From the NCBI GenBank assembly GCA_017591395.1, contig WEDG01000470.1, forward strand, positions 89,408 through 153,407: 64,000 nt of DNA, given 5' to 3'. The notes under the pieces are model-generated. The model saw nothing but the letters and a program-made list of their open reading frames with translations. It ran no database searches and was not told the origin of the DNA. The DNA comes from Schistocephalus solidus (taxonomy: Eukaryota; Platyhelminthes; Cestoda; Diphyllobothriidea; Diphyllobothriidae). This document shows positions 3,781-47,990 of the stretch, piece after piece (positions within the stretch are counted from its first letter, which is position 1; each line of letters begins with the position of its first letter). The position numbers and the translations under genes are program-made.

Positions 3781-4026
3781 GTAAGGAAGTTGGTCTCAAC
3801 CATTACGTGAATTTTCTTTAAATTATATTTTATATTGGAAATTTTATATTTTGGAACCTACAAATAATACATACCCCCACTCCAACATAAAAGCGTACAC
3901 TTGGTTTATATGACCTTTCACATCTTGTTGTCCAGTTGATTAAAACGGTAATTAATTTTCAGAAAGACAGTTAGCGTATGGAATGTTATTTTCAAAGTCT
4001 GTAGGACTCATGGAAAAAAAAATCAA
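3781..4026 (+). other. Intron start, no element seen
   Basis: AT-rich start of the long intron (3,781-10,067) of the neurexin-like gene. Nothing is recognisable before the repeat cluster at 4,027. Confidence 0.4.
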
Positions 4027-4262
4027 GGAAATAATTTCTGAAATTATTAAGTGCGGGACCTGGAGTCAGATGATTCGGTCATGAATTTTTAGGGTAAGAC
4101 CCGAAATTTCAATGAACATTTAGGTCGAAGAAAAAGAACGCTGGGGGACCCACTGAGGAGCCGAACCCCTCGTTGCTGCGTCACGCAGCACCAGAAACAT
4201 CAGCGAAACACGTGTCTGGGCTTTTAGCTAGAACCTATTTCGAAAGAACGGTATAATATATG

Positions 4263-4266
<4 letters not shown>
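4027..4266 (+). repeat. Family A repeat, copy 1 (240 bp, hammerhead-bearing)
   Basis: An interspersed repeat of about 240 bp. A second + copy lies at 5,049-5,292 and matches almost base for base over the whole length, from the shared AATAATTTCT start to the shared CGGTATAATATATGTGCC end. Both copies run into TA dinucleotides. There is no open reading frame, no polyA tail and no tRNA-like box. The 3' half folds as a hammerhead ribozyme (separate entry). Decayed copies of the 3' half lie near 16,370, 29,620, 57,880 and 58,085. I infer a non-autonomous, retrozyme- or SINE-like element. Confidence 0.65.
4149..4220 (+). ncRNA. Type I hammerhead ribozyme, family A copy 1
   Basis: The core boxes are CUGAGGA (4,153-4,159) and GAAA (4,205-4,208), with cleavage expected after C4216. 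Stem I is CCCA (4,149-4,152) with UGGG (4,217-4,220), extended across an internal loop by GCU (4,140-4,142) with AGC (4,226-4,228). Stem II is GCCGA (4,160-4,164) with UCAGC (4,200-4,204), with one C/A mismatch, capped by an extra hairpin GCUGCG/CGCAGC. The G-C pair sits exactly at the usual 10.1/11.1 position. Stem III is the self-complementary ACACGUGU. Core, stem order and cleavage triplet all fit the known motif. Activity is inferred, not shown. Confidence 0.7.

Positions 4267-4304
<38 letters not shown>
4267..4304. repeat. (TA)n microsatellite
   Basis: About 19 TA units between family A copy 1 and the inverted SINE pair. Confidence 0.95.
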
Positions 4305-4306
<2 letters not shown>

Positions 4307-4334
4307 ATAATTTGGAACCGACAAAGACAAGGGA

Positions 4335-4379
4335 GACCGGAATGGCCATTTCTGGCTTATTAGCCGTCATCAGCCAGTC
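4335..4379 (-). ncRNA. Hammerhead ribozyme in SINE, - strand copy
   Basis: Read on the - strand, GACUGG (4,379-4,374), CUGAUGA (4,373-4,367), stem II GGCU-AAUA-AGCC, GAAA (4,352-4,349), stem III AUGGCCAU, cleavage after U at 4,341, then CCGGUC (4,340-4,335). Stem I is six pairs, with one G-U. The only deviation from the classic motif is a C/A mismatch at 10.1/11.1, next to the core. Confidence 0.6.
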
Positions 4380-4487
4380 ATACCCAATCCCAAGTGTGGA
4401 ACACCTGGGATTCGAACCCGCGACCTTTGGTATTTGAGTCGAACGCTCTACCATTGACCCAGGTGTTCCACACTTGGGATTGGGTAT

Positions 4488-4532
4488 GACTGGCTGATGA
4501 CGGCTAATAAGCCAGAAATGGCCATTCCGGTC
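4488..4532 (+). ncRNA. Hammerhead ribozyme in SINE, + strand copy
   Basis: Identical to the - strand partner over the ribozyme: GACUGG (4,488-4,493), CUGAUGA (4,494-4,500), stem II 4,502-4,513 with an AAUA loop, GAAA (4,515-4,518), AUGGCCAU (4,518-4,525), U4526 as the cleavage base, CCGGUC (4,527-4,532). With only two stable stem III pairs in the monomer, cleavage may work better as a dimer. Confidence 0.6.
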
Positions 4533-4670
4533 TCCCCTTTGTCTTTGTCGGTTCCAAAATTATCAACATATGCTACATCGTCGCTATGCGACTGCCTGTG
4601 AGTACTCTAGTCTGAGTTCCAGGGCACAACGGAACATAAATGTTCCTTAAGCAGATTGGTGAGCCACACT

Positions 4671-4673
<3 letters not shown>

Positions 4674-4712
<39 letters not shown>
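4674..4712. repeat. (TA)n microsatellite
   Basis: About 19 TA units directly before the GGT-rich repeat. Confidence 0.95.

Positions 4713-4835: not shown

Positions 4836-4880
<45 letters not shown>
4836..4880. repeat. (TA)n microsatellite
   Basis: TA units with a few TACATA interruptions, next to the - strand family A copy. Confidence 0.9.
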
Positions 4881-4884
4881 GACA

Positions 4885-5015
4885 AAGACGTTATACCGTA
4901 CTTCCGACATAGATACTAGCTAAAAGCCCAGACACGTGTTTCGCCGATGTTACTGCTGCTGTGTGACACAGCAACGAGGGGTTTGGCACCTCAGTGGGTC
5001 CCCCAGCGTTCTCTA
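4885..5015 (-). repeat. Family A repeat, inverted copy 2
   Basis: The reverse complement of the 3' half of the family A repeat, from the ACCGTACTTCCGACATAG end through the hammerhead region to the CCCCCAGCGTTCT segment. It faces copy 3, which lies immediately downstream on the + strand. Confidence 0.7.
4927..4998 (-). ncRNA. Hammerhead ribozyme, family A copy 2 (core change)
   Basis: On the - strand the boxes read CUGAGGU (4,994-4,988) and GAAA (4,942-4,939). Stem II is GCCAA with UCGGC, stem III ACACGUGU, stem I CCCA with UGGG. The last base of the CUGANGA box is U in place of A, a change in a catalytically essential residue, so this copy is probably inactive. Confidence 0.55.
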
Positions 5016-5048
5016 TGCGGTTTCTGGTATATAGACTCCAGAGAATAA

Positions 5049-5292
5049 TCGGGTAAATAATTTCTAAAATTATTAAGTGCAGGACATGGAGTCAGGTGAT
5101 TCGGACATGACTTTTTAGGGTCAGAACCGAAATTTCAATGAACATTTGGGTCGAAGACAAAGAAAGCTGGGGGATCCACTGAGGAGCCGAACCCCTCGTT
5201 GCTGCGTCACGCAGCACCAGAAACATCGGTGAAACACGTGTCTGGGCTTTTAGTTAGGACCTATGTCGGAAGTACGGTATAATATATGTGCC
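5049..5292 (+). repeat. Family A repeat, copy 3
   Basis: A full-length second + copy of the 240-bp repeat, with the same ends as 4,027-4,266. It ends in GCC followed by a short TA run, after which the sequence diverges. Confidence 0.65.
5175..5246 (+). ncRNA. Type I hammerhead ribozyme, family A copy 3
   Basis: CUGAGGA (5,179-5,185) and GAAA (5,231-5,234) are intact. Stem II GCCGA (5,186-5,190) pairs fully with UCGGU (5,226-5,230), with one G-U. Stem III is ACACGUGU, with cleavage expected after C5242. Stem I UCCA/UGGG plus distal GCU (5,166-5,168) with AGU (5,252-5,254), where the base change from copy 1 keeps a wobble. This is the best preserved copy of the family. Confidence 0.7.
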
Positions 5293-8200
5293 ATATATAT
5301 ATATTTCAACCGTACTTGGAACCGACTCGCAAACACCACACCTCACATCACCGTCCCGGGGCTGACATGCAGGTGTACTTGTTTATGGTCACGTAGATTT
5401 TGAGGCTTCTAAACAACTTCAAGCTAAGCACTCCCAAGGGTAAAGATTGGTGTGGGTTCGAAAGTTAATGGATCAGAAAAACCCGCCCAACGGACAAATA
5501 TGTAAGACAGCCATAAACGCCTTAGTAGGAAGTTAATGCAGCCAAGAATTACAGCACATCCTCAACAGCATTGCGTATGATTTTCAGGCCACTAATCGGG
5601 CCAGTTTATACCTGGAATGTGCGGTCAAAATATGACAGGACGGTATTTGCTTCACATCAATGAAAGCAGTCATGGGCATACTTGATGGCACTGCGGCTTT
5701 CTCATTGCGGCATGTAGGAAAACGTCCGGTAATATGCATGGTGTGACAATCGTGTGAGGTGGGATGAGTGCCTCAAGTAAAGACGCGACTGGTTGTCGGG
5801 TGGTAAAAAGATGTTAGGGAATTAAGCTGGGAATGATAAAGCAATCTTTGGATGGCGGGAATGATGGTGGTGAGGTGGTGGTTGTGGGAGTGGTGGTAGA
5901 GAATTTGAATGAGGTGGTGGCAGTGTCGCTGTGAGTGGCTCTCGTGCTGGTGATGTCACTTGGTGGTCGCCATCGAGGTAATCGTTGTTTTTGGCGTGAA
6001 AATTTAGGTCTTGGGGTGGTGGCGGTGGTGGTGTTGTTTTTGTTTTTAGTGCTGGTGGTGGTGCCGTTGGTGGTGTTGACGGTCTCCGTAGCTCACGGAT
6101 GAGCGTTTTTAGTTGCATCTGTATTACTTGGCACAACGCTGTAGACTTTGCACTTTACCGTTAGTGGAATAATGCCTTCCAAGCTATGCAATGACGTATT
6201 CCCCTTGGGTTGATAATAATGCACTCATATTTGTGTTCAGTGATGTTGCTCATCTCACCGCGTTCCCTACCCCTAGATTCTTTTTGCCTGCGAGATACAA
6301 AAACCTTTTTTAGGCCCTCAAATTTTACCAGTGTCAGATTTCCAGATCAACGAGTTGCATTCTTATTGCCATGGATCCCGTTTTAAAGTAGAAGGGTTTT
6401 TATCTTCCTTGTTGCGGTCGGCACGTCAACTTTGGACTCTAAAGCAGTGTTATGAATTGTGTTCAGTAGCCATATCAGCGCCCTCGCCTGCCTTCAGATA
6501 TTGCTTCAATGCTGGTTTGATACCTCTGTAATTGTTATGTAATCATTAAATTCTGTTTTTCTGTAACAGTAAAAAGCTAGCCTGTTTCTGATGTACCCAG
6601 GTAGTGTGGTTAAAATACTTTGTGTGAGACAAGGAGGAAGTGGTCTAACCAGTGTTCACAATCACGCATCGGCGCTGTCATTTGCGCATCACAGCGATCA
6701 CGTCTACTCTCCCGAAAGTTACCGCTTATGAGGGTACATACAGGTTTTTTTATTGGTTTGAAATGAAGGGGTCGTTGGCGGGTGGTTGTGCGTTGTGTTT
6801 GCACGGTTATACCGCTGCCGAGCCTGTGATAACGTGGCACCTTCCCTGATATCACCATCAGTACTCAAGACGACATTGAAATCATGAGGATACTCTGTTT
6901 ATTCCACCTTGTTTAACCCAGCAGGATTTTGTGCAGGTTTACTGAGAATTCATCTTGTATATTGGCATTACGAATCACTTGCGCAGGCACTGGCAGACGC
7001 AACTACATTCTCCCTAGGGAGTGACGGACTCGTGGCCATGGGCCGATCTTCGATTCTCAGCATTTCACTCTTGATCTTGAAAGTGACTTTAGTTTTTCAC
7101 CACTCTAACTTTGGATGCCAGTTCCAGCCTCTAGGCCCCCCCATCTTTACTGGCTTGCGGCAGCGGGTCTCACTGAGAAGGTGGATGTTTGCTTTGTAGC
7201 GTGCCACTACGTGGGCGTTCATTATTTCTTTAGTATTACTACGTTGTTTAAAATAAAACGAATATTACAGGATGACATATAATGCAAATTCACTCTGCAG
7301 ACGGTAGAAGATAGCCAGATGCCAACCGGAGCTGTCTGTCGTTTCGGGCTGTTATGAGGCCAGTATTTAACGACCCACGAGCTACGGCAGGCTTACAAAC
7401 TGTGTCATTTTCTGTAGGTTTTAGAGCGCAATTTTCCCTAACTTTTCACACGAAGGGCTACGCAGTGTTCTGTCATATTTAACTACTAAGATGCTTAAGC
7501 CGATTGCCGAATTTCGCTACAAAACATGACTTCGGTATAAGGGGAAATTAACCTGACTGAGGTCTGCTTGCCTATAGGATGGTGCGACCCCTTCTAAGCA
7601 GAGCCTGTTGAAGGAGGGGAAATGGAATTACAACTGTCTTGTCAGACATTAGGATGTGCGCGATAAATACTCTCATTTAGTATCACCTGCCGGGTGATCA
7701 ATGCTAACAAAGTGTGCTGCCGTGCTGAAAATATTCTCGTTTAACAAAACAATATAGTTAAACTGTAGAAACATAACAAGGTTAATCACTGCCCAACGTA
7801 CGAATCTGTTTCTAGTGAAATGGACTCCTTCTGAATCTTCATCACCTCATCCCTTCACCCTTCTAGCTGTGATGGTAAGACGGAACTGAGATGACTCGAA
7901 GTTTGCATGTCTACAGTAACTGACAAGAGTTAACAACTCATCTATGCTTGCCACACACGACCTGGTTCCTGACCGCACACATGTCAGGCTCTGCTGGTAA
8001 AGTTGTTTCGTCCCCACTACAGCCAAAGTATGATCAAAAAAACACCGGAAATGTTATTTTTGTTGAGTCCATCTGTGAATCGTGGTCATCAGGTTGCTGT
8101 TACTCTAAAGAGCCCAGCTTCAAAGAGTTTTAAATGAGAGATGTTTTCCAGAGCTGAAGGAGAGTATATGAATTAACCAACTTTCGTCATGTTTTGGCAG

Positions 8201-34664: not shown

Positions 34665-35159
<495 letters not shown>

Positions 35160-43780: not shown

Positions 43781-43818
43781 ATTGCCGGTAAATGAATATT
43801 GCCGGCAAAGACAAGGGA

Positions 43819-43863
43819 GACTGGAATGACCATTTCTGGCCTATTAGTCGTTGTTAGCCAGTC
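43819..43863 (-). ncRNA. Decayed hammerhead in SINE
   Basis: - strand: stem I GACUGG with CCAGUC pairs perfectly over six bases. The U-G pair of the 4.3-kb copies is U-A here. The core box has become CUAACAA, so catalysis is lost. GAAA is still present. Confidence 0.5.
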
Positions 43864-44068
43864 ACATACAACCCCAGGTAGTGCACCACCCGCGGATCGA
43901 ACCCGTGACCCGTTGATCAGAAGTCACACGCTCTAACTAGTGAACTTGTTTTCACTGGTCATATTGACTTGCATTCGTTGATGAACGCTCAATGGTTAGA
44001 GCGTTGGATTTTTGAGCAACGGGTCACGGATTCGATCCTTGGGTGATGCACAACGTGGGGTGGGGTAT

Positions 44069-44113
44069 AACTGGCTAACGATGGTTAATAAATCAGAAAA
44101 TTCCATTACAGTC
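44069..44113 (+). ncRNA. Decayed hammerhead in SINE
   Basis: Core box CUAACGA (44,075-44,081), GAAA at 44,096-44,099, stem I AACUGG with ACAGUC only partly paired. At 10.1/11.1 this copy has a U-A pair, which may be the ancestral state. Confidence 0.45.
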
Positions 44114-44140
44114 TCCCTTGTCTTTTTCGGCAGTGTGCAT

Positions 44141-45303: not shown

Positions 45304-45602
45304 TAAGTTTGCCCTAAAACCATGTCTGTCTAAGACGCCTGTTCCACCCTTAGCAACATATTTGTGCTATATATGTGGTATGTGTCCTATGACACAACGT
45401 TCGTGTATCGCCGGTAGCTAGCTGGCAAGCGGGCGGACAAATGGGATCAAGTGAGATCCTAACCACATCAGTGAGTGATACGGACTTGTTGGACTTGTTT
45501 ATGTACCTCACTGCACAAGGCATGTGACGTACTGATGATCGGTTACGACCGTGAAACAGGTGTCTGCGTCTTGCCTGTTGTACCCTTAGCAACATATCTG
45601 TG
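45304..45602 (+). repeat. Family C tandem repeat with hammerhead
   Basis: The block CCCTTAGCAACATATNTGTGC occurs twice, at 45,348 and 45,583, each time preceded by GCCTGTT and followed by TATATAT. This implies a unit of about 235-240 bp, one full and one partial copy in tandem. The complete copy ends with a hammerhead (45,518-45,576). At the matching place in the partial copy, AAACCATGTCTG (45,317-45,328) looks like the remnant of the ribozyme's GAAAC...GUC end. Tandem short repeats with one hammerhead per unit are the hallmark of retrozymes. Confidence 0.55.
45518..45576 (+). ncRNA. Type I hammerhead ribozyme, family C
   Basis: The most complete fold in the window. Outer stem I AGGCA (45,518-45,522) with UGCCU (45,572-45,576); internal loop UGU/U; inner stem I GACGUA (45,526-45,531) with UGCGUC (45,565-45,570); core CUGAUGA (45,532-45,538); stem II CGGU-UACG-ACCG (45,540-45,551); GAAA (45,553-45,556); stem III AC-AGGU-GU; cleavage after C45564. 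The two-part stem I with an internal loop is what natural type I ribozymes use for loop-loop contacts. The only flaw is a U/U mismatch at 10.1/11.1. Confidence 0.7.

Positions 45603-45696
<94 letters not shown>
45603..45696. repeat. (TA)n microsatellite
   Basis: About 47 TA units with one TAAATA interruption, bordering the left arm of the foldback. Confidence 0.95.
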
Positions 45697-47284: not shown

Positions 47285-47445
47285 ACAATCTATGTGGCTC
47301 AATGGTTAGAGCGTTGCACTTCGGATCAAAGTGTCGCGGGTTAGATCCTCGGGTGGTGCATCACCTGGGATTGGGTATGACGTACTGATGATGGCTAATA
47401 AGCCAGAACTGGTCATACCAAGCTCCCTTTGCTGGTTTTATTTAT
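47285..47445 (+). repeat. tRNA-derived SINE, single copy
   Basis: The clearest tRNA-like head in the window: TGGCTCAATGGTTAGAGCG (A-box region) and GGGTTAGATCC (B-box region, one or two changes), followed by the SINE body and a CTCCC tail. Confidence 0.7.
47379..47424 (+). ncRNA. Decayed hammerhead in SINE
   Basis: CUGAUGA intact (47,385-47,391). Stem II UGGCU-AAUA-AGCCA pairs over five bases, including U-A at 10.1/11.1. The GAAA box is GAAC and stem I is mostly lost. Confidence 0.45.
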
Positions 47446-47825
47446 CTGCTAAGTTAGGAAAATGTGATTGAATTTCCTTCAATACGATTGAGATTCTATG
47501 AGGATTTTAACGTTTCCTTTATTAATGAAGTAGGCGCTCCTTGGATAGTTACAGAAGTCACTCGTTCCGGTTGTGCCTTAGGCTCACCAGCCCCACCGGC
47601 AGCTCGCACGGTGGCTATTAGAAGCCACAAATGTCCATTTCATTCACCCCGGTCTTTGTCAGAGCATATCTCCTTTTATACTACTGGGCCCGGCTATGCG
47701 GCCCGCAGGGAGGACTCTCAGAGTGGACCCATAAAAGCACTAACGGCATGACTGAGTCTCTCGTAACCACTCTGTGAGTTCCTATCTACCCTTTTTATTA
47801 TCCCAGATCGAAACCGACAAGACAA

Positions 47826-47990
47826 CGATCGCGTGGTGTAGTGGGTTAGAGCAGGTTTAACATCTAACAACAGGCCTCGAGTTCGAGCTTCGGGTACCAT
47901 AACATCTGTGGTTGCGGTATGGCTGACTGATAACGGCTAATAACCTAGAATTGGCCATTCCAGCCTCCCTGTCTTTGTTGGTAGTACTTC
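47826..47990 (+). repeat. tRNA-derived SINE, divergent copy
   Basis: Head GTGGTGTAGTGGGTTAGAGC with a B-box-like GAGTTCGAGCTTC, body CTGATAACGGCTAATAACC and tail CTCCCTGTCTTTG. It belongs to the same family but to a different subfamily than the 4.3-kb copies. Confidence 0.65.
47921..47965 (+). ncRNA. Decayed hammerhead in SINE with covarying stem I
   Basis: Stem I is GGCUGA with CCAGCC. Compared with GACUGG/CCGGUC at 4,488-4,532, pair 2 has changed from A-U to G-C on both sides, a compensatory change. Core boxes are CUGAUAA and GAAU, so this copy is dead now. Confidence 0.5.

Follow-up and report, generated by a model that had tools for sequence, protein, structure and literature searches.

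The genome of the cestode Schistocephalus solidus contains an abundant repeat in which a tRNA-like head is followed by a body laid out as a type I hammerhead ribozyme, and this layout is common to the repeat and to a differently sequenced 236-bp tandem repeat, the stems having changed pairwise between the two. On balance, and with considerable reserve, we favor the view of a non-autonomous, retrozyme-like retroelement whose tRNA-derived head, carrying internal A and B boxes for RNA polymerase III (Pol III), is followed by a type I hammerhead and then by a 3′ tail resembling that of the 236-bp repeat. The stretch analyzed here, referred to as the window, comprises 64,000 nucleotides of contig WEDG01000470.1 (positions 89,408 to 153,407), and the genome searched comprises 603,688,359 bases in 8,019 contigs.

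In the window, the element lies in a fold-back with two arms of 79 nt each (4331-4409 and 4458-4536), which are 100% complementary and separated by a spacer of 48 nt, and it is bordered by two (AT)n tracts (4267-4304 and 4674-4712). The letters given by the original prediction for 4488-4532 (+), GACTGG-CTGATGA-C-GGCT-AATA-AGCC-A-GAA-ATGGCCAT-T-CCGGTC, are present as described, and a mirror copy of this body sits in the other arm, at 4335-4379 (-). A tRNA-like head with a perfect B box had been placed upstream of the plus-strand body; such a head was recognized by both ARAGORN and Rfam and is also present in the satellite consensus, but the window head lies between the arms on the minus strand, so that the head-plus-body element reads leftwards into the minus-strand body and the plus-strand body has no head in its own sense. 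The window head scored 30.2 bits with the Rfam tRNA model (gathering threshold of 29), and of 11 other element loci submitted to ARAGORN, one yielded a tRNA call. In the satellite consensus, the B box is perfect, the A box deviates at one position, and T4 runs are absent; the consensus of a second element family likewise has one A-box mismatch but lacks a perfect B box and contains a single T4 run 3′ of the hammerhead. The element tail carries a hairpin and a ATCGGTGAG block.

Table 1. Positions of the element, its relatives, and other hammerhead-like motifs in the window
Feature	Position	Strand	Remarks
tRNA-like head	4398-4469	-	ARAGORN tRNA-Leu CAA at 4396-4469; Rfam tRNA at 4398-4468
B box GGTTCGAATCC	4408-4418	-	Perfect match, inside tRNA-like head
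A-box-like sequence	4450-4461	-	Two departures from consensus; placed by eye
Hammerhead-like body of head-plus-body element	4335-4379	-	3′ of tRNA head in sense
Hammerhead-like body, mirror arm of fold-back	4488-4532	+	No head in sense
Full type I layout	4482-4536	+	Outer stem GGG/CCC, internal loop UAU/U, stem I, core, stem II, stem III palindrome ATGGCCAT
Element 3′ tail	4533-4673	+	Ends at (AT)n tract
Third hammerhead-like motif	5173-5248	+	CTGAGGA ... GAAACACGTGTC, long stem II; descriptor match at 5179(+) only
Diverged body copy	43815-43869	-	Core broken (CTAACAA), G5 and G8 lost; 6/6 stem I pairs kept
Diverged body copy	44063-44117	+	Core broken (CTAACGA), G5 lost; head-to-head with 43815-43869
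Copy of 236-bp tandem repeat	45337-45610	+	Retrozyme-like, no tRNA head
Hammerhead motif of 236-bp repeat	45526-45570	+	GUC triplet, U-U at 10.1-11.1; descriptor scan
Diverged body copy	47373-47427	+	CTGATGA and tested core kept; stem I lost (1/6 pairs)
Body fragment	47613-47660	+	blastn
Diverged body copy	47915-47969	+	G8 lost (CTGATAA)

The core positions listed for type I hammerheads (C3 U4 G5 A6 N7 G8 A9, G12 A13 A14, A15.1-U16.1, and H17; PMC3088659) are intact in both element consensuses and in 131 of 133 satellite units. The hammerhead fold assigned to the body is partly supported: the core, loop 1, and the stems have the type I layout, but a core-adjacent mismatch and the silence of Rfam speak against it. 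Core-adjacent pairs 1.1-2.1 and 15.1-16.1 form in the consensus; the third, 10.1-11.1, is C-A in the element consensus and is paired in 18 of 45 copies, and because of this pair, strict membership in the type I hammerheads is withheld. Stem I has an internal loop, UAU/U, opposite loop II and an outer stem, GGG/CCC; this loop is the same as that in the 236-bp repeat consensus and is a putative partner of loop II in a tertiary contact. Overall, the body is built like a type I hammerhead and probably works like one, with cleavage predicted at an AUU triplet. AUU is a poor cleavage triplet for hammerheads, and both the triplet and the C-A mismatch are also consistent with a fossil hammerhead, that is, a body that no longer cuts and has been kept as the central domain of a SINE in another role, such as reverse transcriptase recognition or RNA stability. 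Named central domains of SINEs include CORE, V, Deu, Ceph, Nin, and Meta. Perreault et al. rejected matches with such core-adjacent mispairs, and 4 of the 18 consensus-conforming hammerheads that they tested did not cut (PMC3088659).

The original prediction counted six or more copies sharing the fold in the window. Seven bodies or pieces were found (blastn, E below 1e-4), but core and stems are kept in just two of them, the fold-back arms, and none of four further window copies long enough for testing has both core and stem I. In the genome, the pattern GAC-N3-CTGATGA-N14-GAAA, which covers the 5′ two-thirds of the motif only and leaves a CTGACGA family outside the count, had 29,139 matches versus 2 for a reversed-pattern control; among the first-listed matches, most were judged by eye to be the element and two were the 236-bp repeat. 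A first genome search with the element gave at least 79 matches (best 40 of 1,636 candidates scored), and no stretch of viral contigs was matched in exact-word scans, whether the words had 24 letters or 20. The element is also organized as satellite arrays with a unit of ~306 bp, and one 10-kb stretch (contig C625, 27500-37499; L031) is all array, with a period of 307, 32.6 copies, and a 99% match. In total, 133 array units of ~306 bp, with up to 8 changes allowed, were obtained from 10 loci on nine contigs, and 127 of them have both the core and 12/12 pairs of stems I to III; three satellite loci (L002, L004, and L005) contain units on both strands.

A search with the copy at 47.4 kb, which gave at least 43 matches (best 40 of 2,081 candidates scored), led to the second element family, which has CTGACGACGG and a unit of ~304 bp (L064/L065, one overlapping place). 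Among 20 loci of this family and its relatives, two of which overlap, 17 hold more than one piece, 14 hold pieces on both strands, and 3 hold a single piece, and many of the pieces end close to unit positions 160 and 280. The classification as a tRNA-derived SINE is apt for the head, with its A and B boxes, but the multipiece and two-stranded loci suggest something other than a plain SINE. Both units, of ~306 bp and ~304 bp, occur in tandem and lie within the retrozyme range of 150 to 450 bp, a comparison that is valid only if the motif counts as a hammerhead.

The 236-bp repeat had at least 144 matches in the genome (best 40 of 1,562 candidates scored) and forms head-to-head arrays at several places, e.g., on contigs C7118, C2208, and C2491. 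Its consensus, built from 24 near-complete monomers that were selected among 52 matches in the window and in 16 of 20 retrieved loci, reads GACGTA-CTGATGA-T-CGGT-AACG-ACCG-T-GAAA-CAGCTGT-C-TGCGTC, with the palindrome ACAGCTGT. The element and the 236-bp repeat share one geometry: an outer stem, the UAU/U internal loop, a 6-bp stem I, the core, a 4-bp stem II, and a 2-bp stem III with a palindromic loop. When the consensuses are aligned base on base, the fixed core and the UAU/U loop six pairs from the core are identical, both partners are changed in 8 of 15 pairs, and the outer stem differs (GGG/CCC in the element and GCA/TGC in the 236-bp repeat). Single copies deviate: UGU is found in the window copy of the 236-bp repeat, and G8 has been lost in one of the element families included in the set described below. 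Variation is also seen at N7 and H17, both of which are allowed to vary in hammerheads.

Sixteen sequences (9 of the element and 7 retrozyme-like, two of them cut one base off) were chosen by hand from a pool of 55-mers with 70 distinct sequences of the element and 24 of the repeat. This set has 17 invariant columns, 12 of which are core or loop 1 by hand count, and 94.5% of its cells pair versus 74.5% in shuffles and 27% to 44% in slid structures. Double changes occur at 9 of the 15 pairs; 8 of them distinguish one family from the other and one falls within the element, and they represent few independent events since the set is in effect two families. With a template composed after both families had been seen, both element consensuses and the retrozyme-like consensus fit in full, at 13/13 bases of the core and loop 1 and at 15/15 pairs, whereas 200,000 shuffles of the 55-mer reached at most 20 of 28 points and the best of 655,916 windows from the loci and the window that was not plainly a family member reached 21 of 28, windows being scored only if CT or GAA was in place. 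Between the second family and the 236-bp repeat, the tails align colinearly, with a score of 30 versus 18.6 ± 2.9 for shuffles (highest, 36; P = 0.0045); the satellite and 236-bp repeat tails are not significantly alike (P = 0.12), and nhmmer with the element profile found no match in the retrozyme-like repeat consensus. Common descent is not proven, given the latter two results, and a common origin of the two repeats is plausible.

Conservation was analyzed in 46 non-satellite copies (<90% identity to the satellite and >70 letters), drawn from 125 distinct sequences. Core sites are more conserved than base-matched sites (P = 0.001), a value that may be inflated because the copies were found through the conserved centre, and none of 45 copies has a G at H17. 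Positions 7 and 10.1 both rank within the top three sites for variability, which is what CpG decay would give. Of the 46 diverged copies, 16 do not pass the core test, two of these through truncation or a gap. Covariation in the stems across the SINE copies, which was one part of the refutation test set by the original prediction, was not found: in an alignment of 43 sequences, consisting of the window copy and 42 of the 46 non-satellite copies (four cut or gapped ones were omitted), 86.4% of cells pair in the hammerhead, and 86.4% pair in shuffles. Since a null result is also expected of neutrally decaying copies, the 43 copies neither support nor exclude the hammerhead. The missing covariation and the conserved sequence that runs past the hammerhead on both sides would suit a body that has ceased to cut, as would the stronger competing hairpin described below. 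However, both element consensuses retain the core, loop 1, and every template pair, the core and 12/12 pairs are kept in most satellite units (see above), and the axolotl retrozyme hammerhead HHR_Amex2, described with a U-U mismatch at the base of stem II like that of the 236-bp repeat, keeps some self-cleavage (PMC7229834). We regard loss of cleavage as an unlikely but serious alternative.

Single copies are predicted to fold otherwise than as a hammerhead. For a 66-mer, another hairpin is preferred (-22.2 versus -10.0 kcal/mol for the hammerhead), with a stem I probability of ~0.002, and the corresponding values are -12.5 versus -8.8 kcal/mol for the 45-mer and -16.3 versus -13.1 kcal/mol for the 55-mer. 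A long hairpin, either CUGGCU/AGCCAG or GGUAUGAC/GUCAUACC with UGGCU/AGCCA, might accordingly be the working form of the conserved unit instead of the hammerhead, and the former pairs in 87.2% of cells of the 43 sequences, as often as the hammerhead does. We consider this improbable, because neither version covaries above shuffles in the 43 sequences, the latter pairs in 75.9% of cells versus 86.4% for the hammerhead, and both leave the agreement with the retrozyme-like repeat unexplained.

For two copies together, a double hammerhead with additional pairs is predicted. Stem III of both families holds an 8-nt palindrome, and the double hammerhead formed by two satellite motifs has an energy of -42.3 kcal/mol versus a cofold minimum of -44.1 kcal/mol. 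This minimum is the double hammerhead plus two A14-U17 pairs that tie up core bases and would have to open for catalysis. The second-family dimer has a minimum of -45.5 kcal/mol and a double hammerhead of -43.7 kcal/mol; for the 236-bp repeat dimer, the values are -34.7 versus -32.7 kcal/mol, and the core and stem II are somewhat different. Type I hammerheads of metazoans are described as often having a weak stem III and cleaving as dimers (PMC7761336, PMC6155905, PMC3088659).

Descriptor scans, with descriptors composed after the motif had been seen, matched the window at 4494(+), 4373(-), 45532(+), and 5179(+) when pair 10.1-11.1 was left free and only at 5179(+) when its pairing was required. 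In 57 Mb of simulated sequence, the free form had 5 matches and the paired form had 10, corresponding to ~0.01 and ~0.02 per window, both strands included, and a tighter descriptor with 6/6 stem I pairs had 0 matches in 80 Mb. The Rfam release 15 models detected no hammerhead over the window at E values up to 1 or over 101 bases at E values up to 10. The window search missed 4335-4532, the 45.5-kb motif with its GUC triplet (45526-45570), and 5173-5248 alike, and the silence of Rfam weighs little since the retrozyme-like hammerhead was among those missed. A genome search with RF00163 gave no matches and is uninformative, as none of 14 controls was detected. That the element is an ordinary tRNA SINE whose conserved centre resembles a hammerhead by chance, as the silence of Rfam, the choice of the motif after it had been seen, and the missing within-family covariation might suggest, is highly improbable given the low descriptor expectation and the agreement, including loop 1, with an independent hammerhead family.

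The combination of a tRNA-like promoter and a hammerhead-like body points to a way in which repeats of this kind could be produced, trimmed to length, and copied. Pol III would start at the tRNA-derived head and read on through tandem copies; with its perfect B box and without a T4 run, the satellite consensus could allow Pol III to read through tandem units, whereas the T4 run and the lack of a perfect B box in the second family fit read-through less well. Through the palindromes in stem III, adjacent hammerheads would then pair, and the resulting double hammerhead would cleave the RNA; the unit-length RNA would be circularized by a host ligase of the RtcB type, and a borrowed reverse transcriptase, probably Penelope-like, would copy the circles, giving rise to tandem and inverted units and, locally, to satellites. 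The ligation and Penelope-like copying steps follow published models (PMC7229834, PMC7761336). We tentatively propose, as a possibility that falls short of being probable, that the element is a promoter-bearing retrozyme, in which a captured tRNA head drives Pol III multimers, the double hammerhead trims them to circles, and reverse transcription seeds tandems that grow into satellites, with the head-less 236-bp repeat as an ancestral or sister form.

By analogy, schistosome Sm-alpha is the precedent and the nearest relative in kind. Like Sj-alpha, it is a SINE-like repeat with a type I hammerhead; ~38,500 hammerhead motif candidates are reported for Schistosoma mansoni and ~5,000 for Schistosoma japonicum, and S. 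mansoni SINEs resembling tRNA-Gln are stated to be similar to Sm-alpha (PMC2770079). In contrast to the schistosome repeats, to which it is likened by description, the element forms long satellite arrays of ~306-bp units and also has inverted units placed head to head. The non-LTR retrozymes of metazoans (Acropora millepora, mussel, and axolotl) are similar in having type I hammerheads in tandem repeats of 150 to 450 bp, from dimers to long arrays, and the axolotl retrozyme is described with a weak stem III and a palindromic tetraloop (PMC7229834). However, published retrozymes are said to harbor no promoter (PMC7761336), so that the transcription of animal retrozymes calls for explanation, whereas A and B boxes in a tRNA-like head are part of the satellite unit of the element. 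With tRNA-headed and head-less forms side by side in the same genome, retrozyme transcription could be tested directly, and a tRNA-headed element would link SINEs, hammerhead circles, and satellite DNA, which are usually studied apart. Sixteen hammerhead families are known from Acropora millepora. Among the titles and abstract openings listed, no coral tRNA-headed hammerhead element is described, and by title, none of the papers listed as using words of the motif sequence is on SINEs.

The minimal type I hammerheads of Penelope-like elements also resemble the body in being tandem, with a stem III that is short or missing and perhaps with cleavage as dimers (PMC7761336, PMC6155905), and a motif like theirs lies beside the fold-back in the window (see below), but the ~306-bp unit of the element is without a visible protein gene and has a 6-bp stem I with an internal loop. 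The limpet satellite PcH-sat, derived from Nin-SINE, is another SINE-related unit amplified into satellite arrays; it is described without A and B boxes, unlike the element, and the word hammerhead is absent from the main text of that paper (PMC11121367).

The fold-back is flanked by repeats, direct at 4018-4278 and 5044-5304 and inverted at 4838-5012, which carry the CTGAGGA ... GAAACACGTGTC motif and are possibly terminal repeats of a Penelope-like element. In addition, the window contains a GAT triplet tract of 494 bp with a 97% match (34665-35158).
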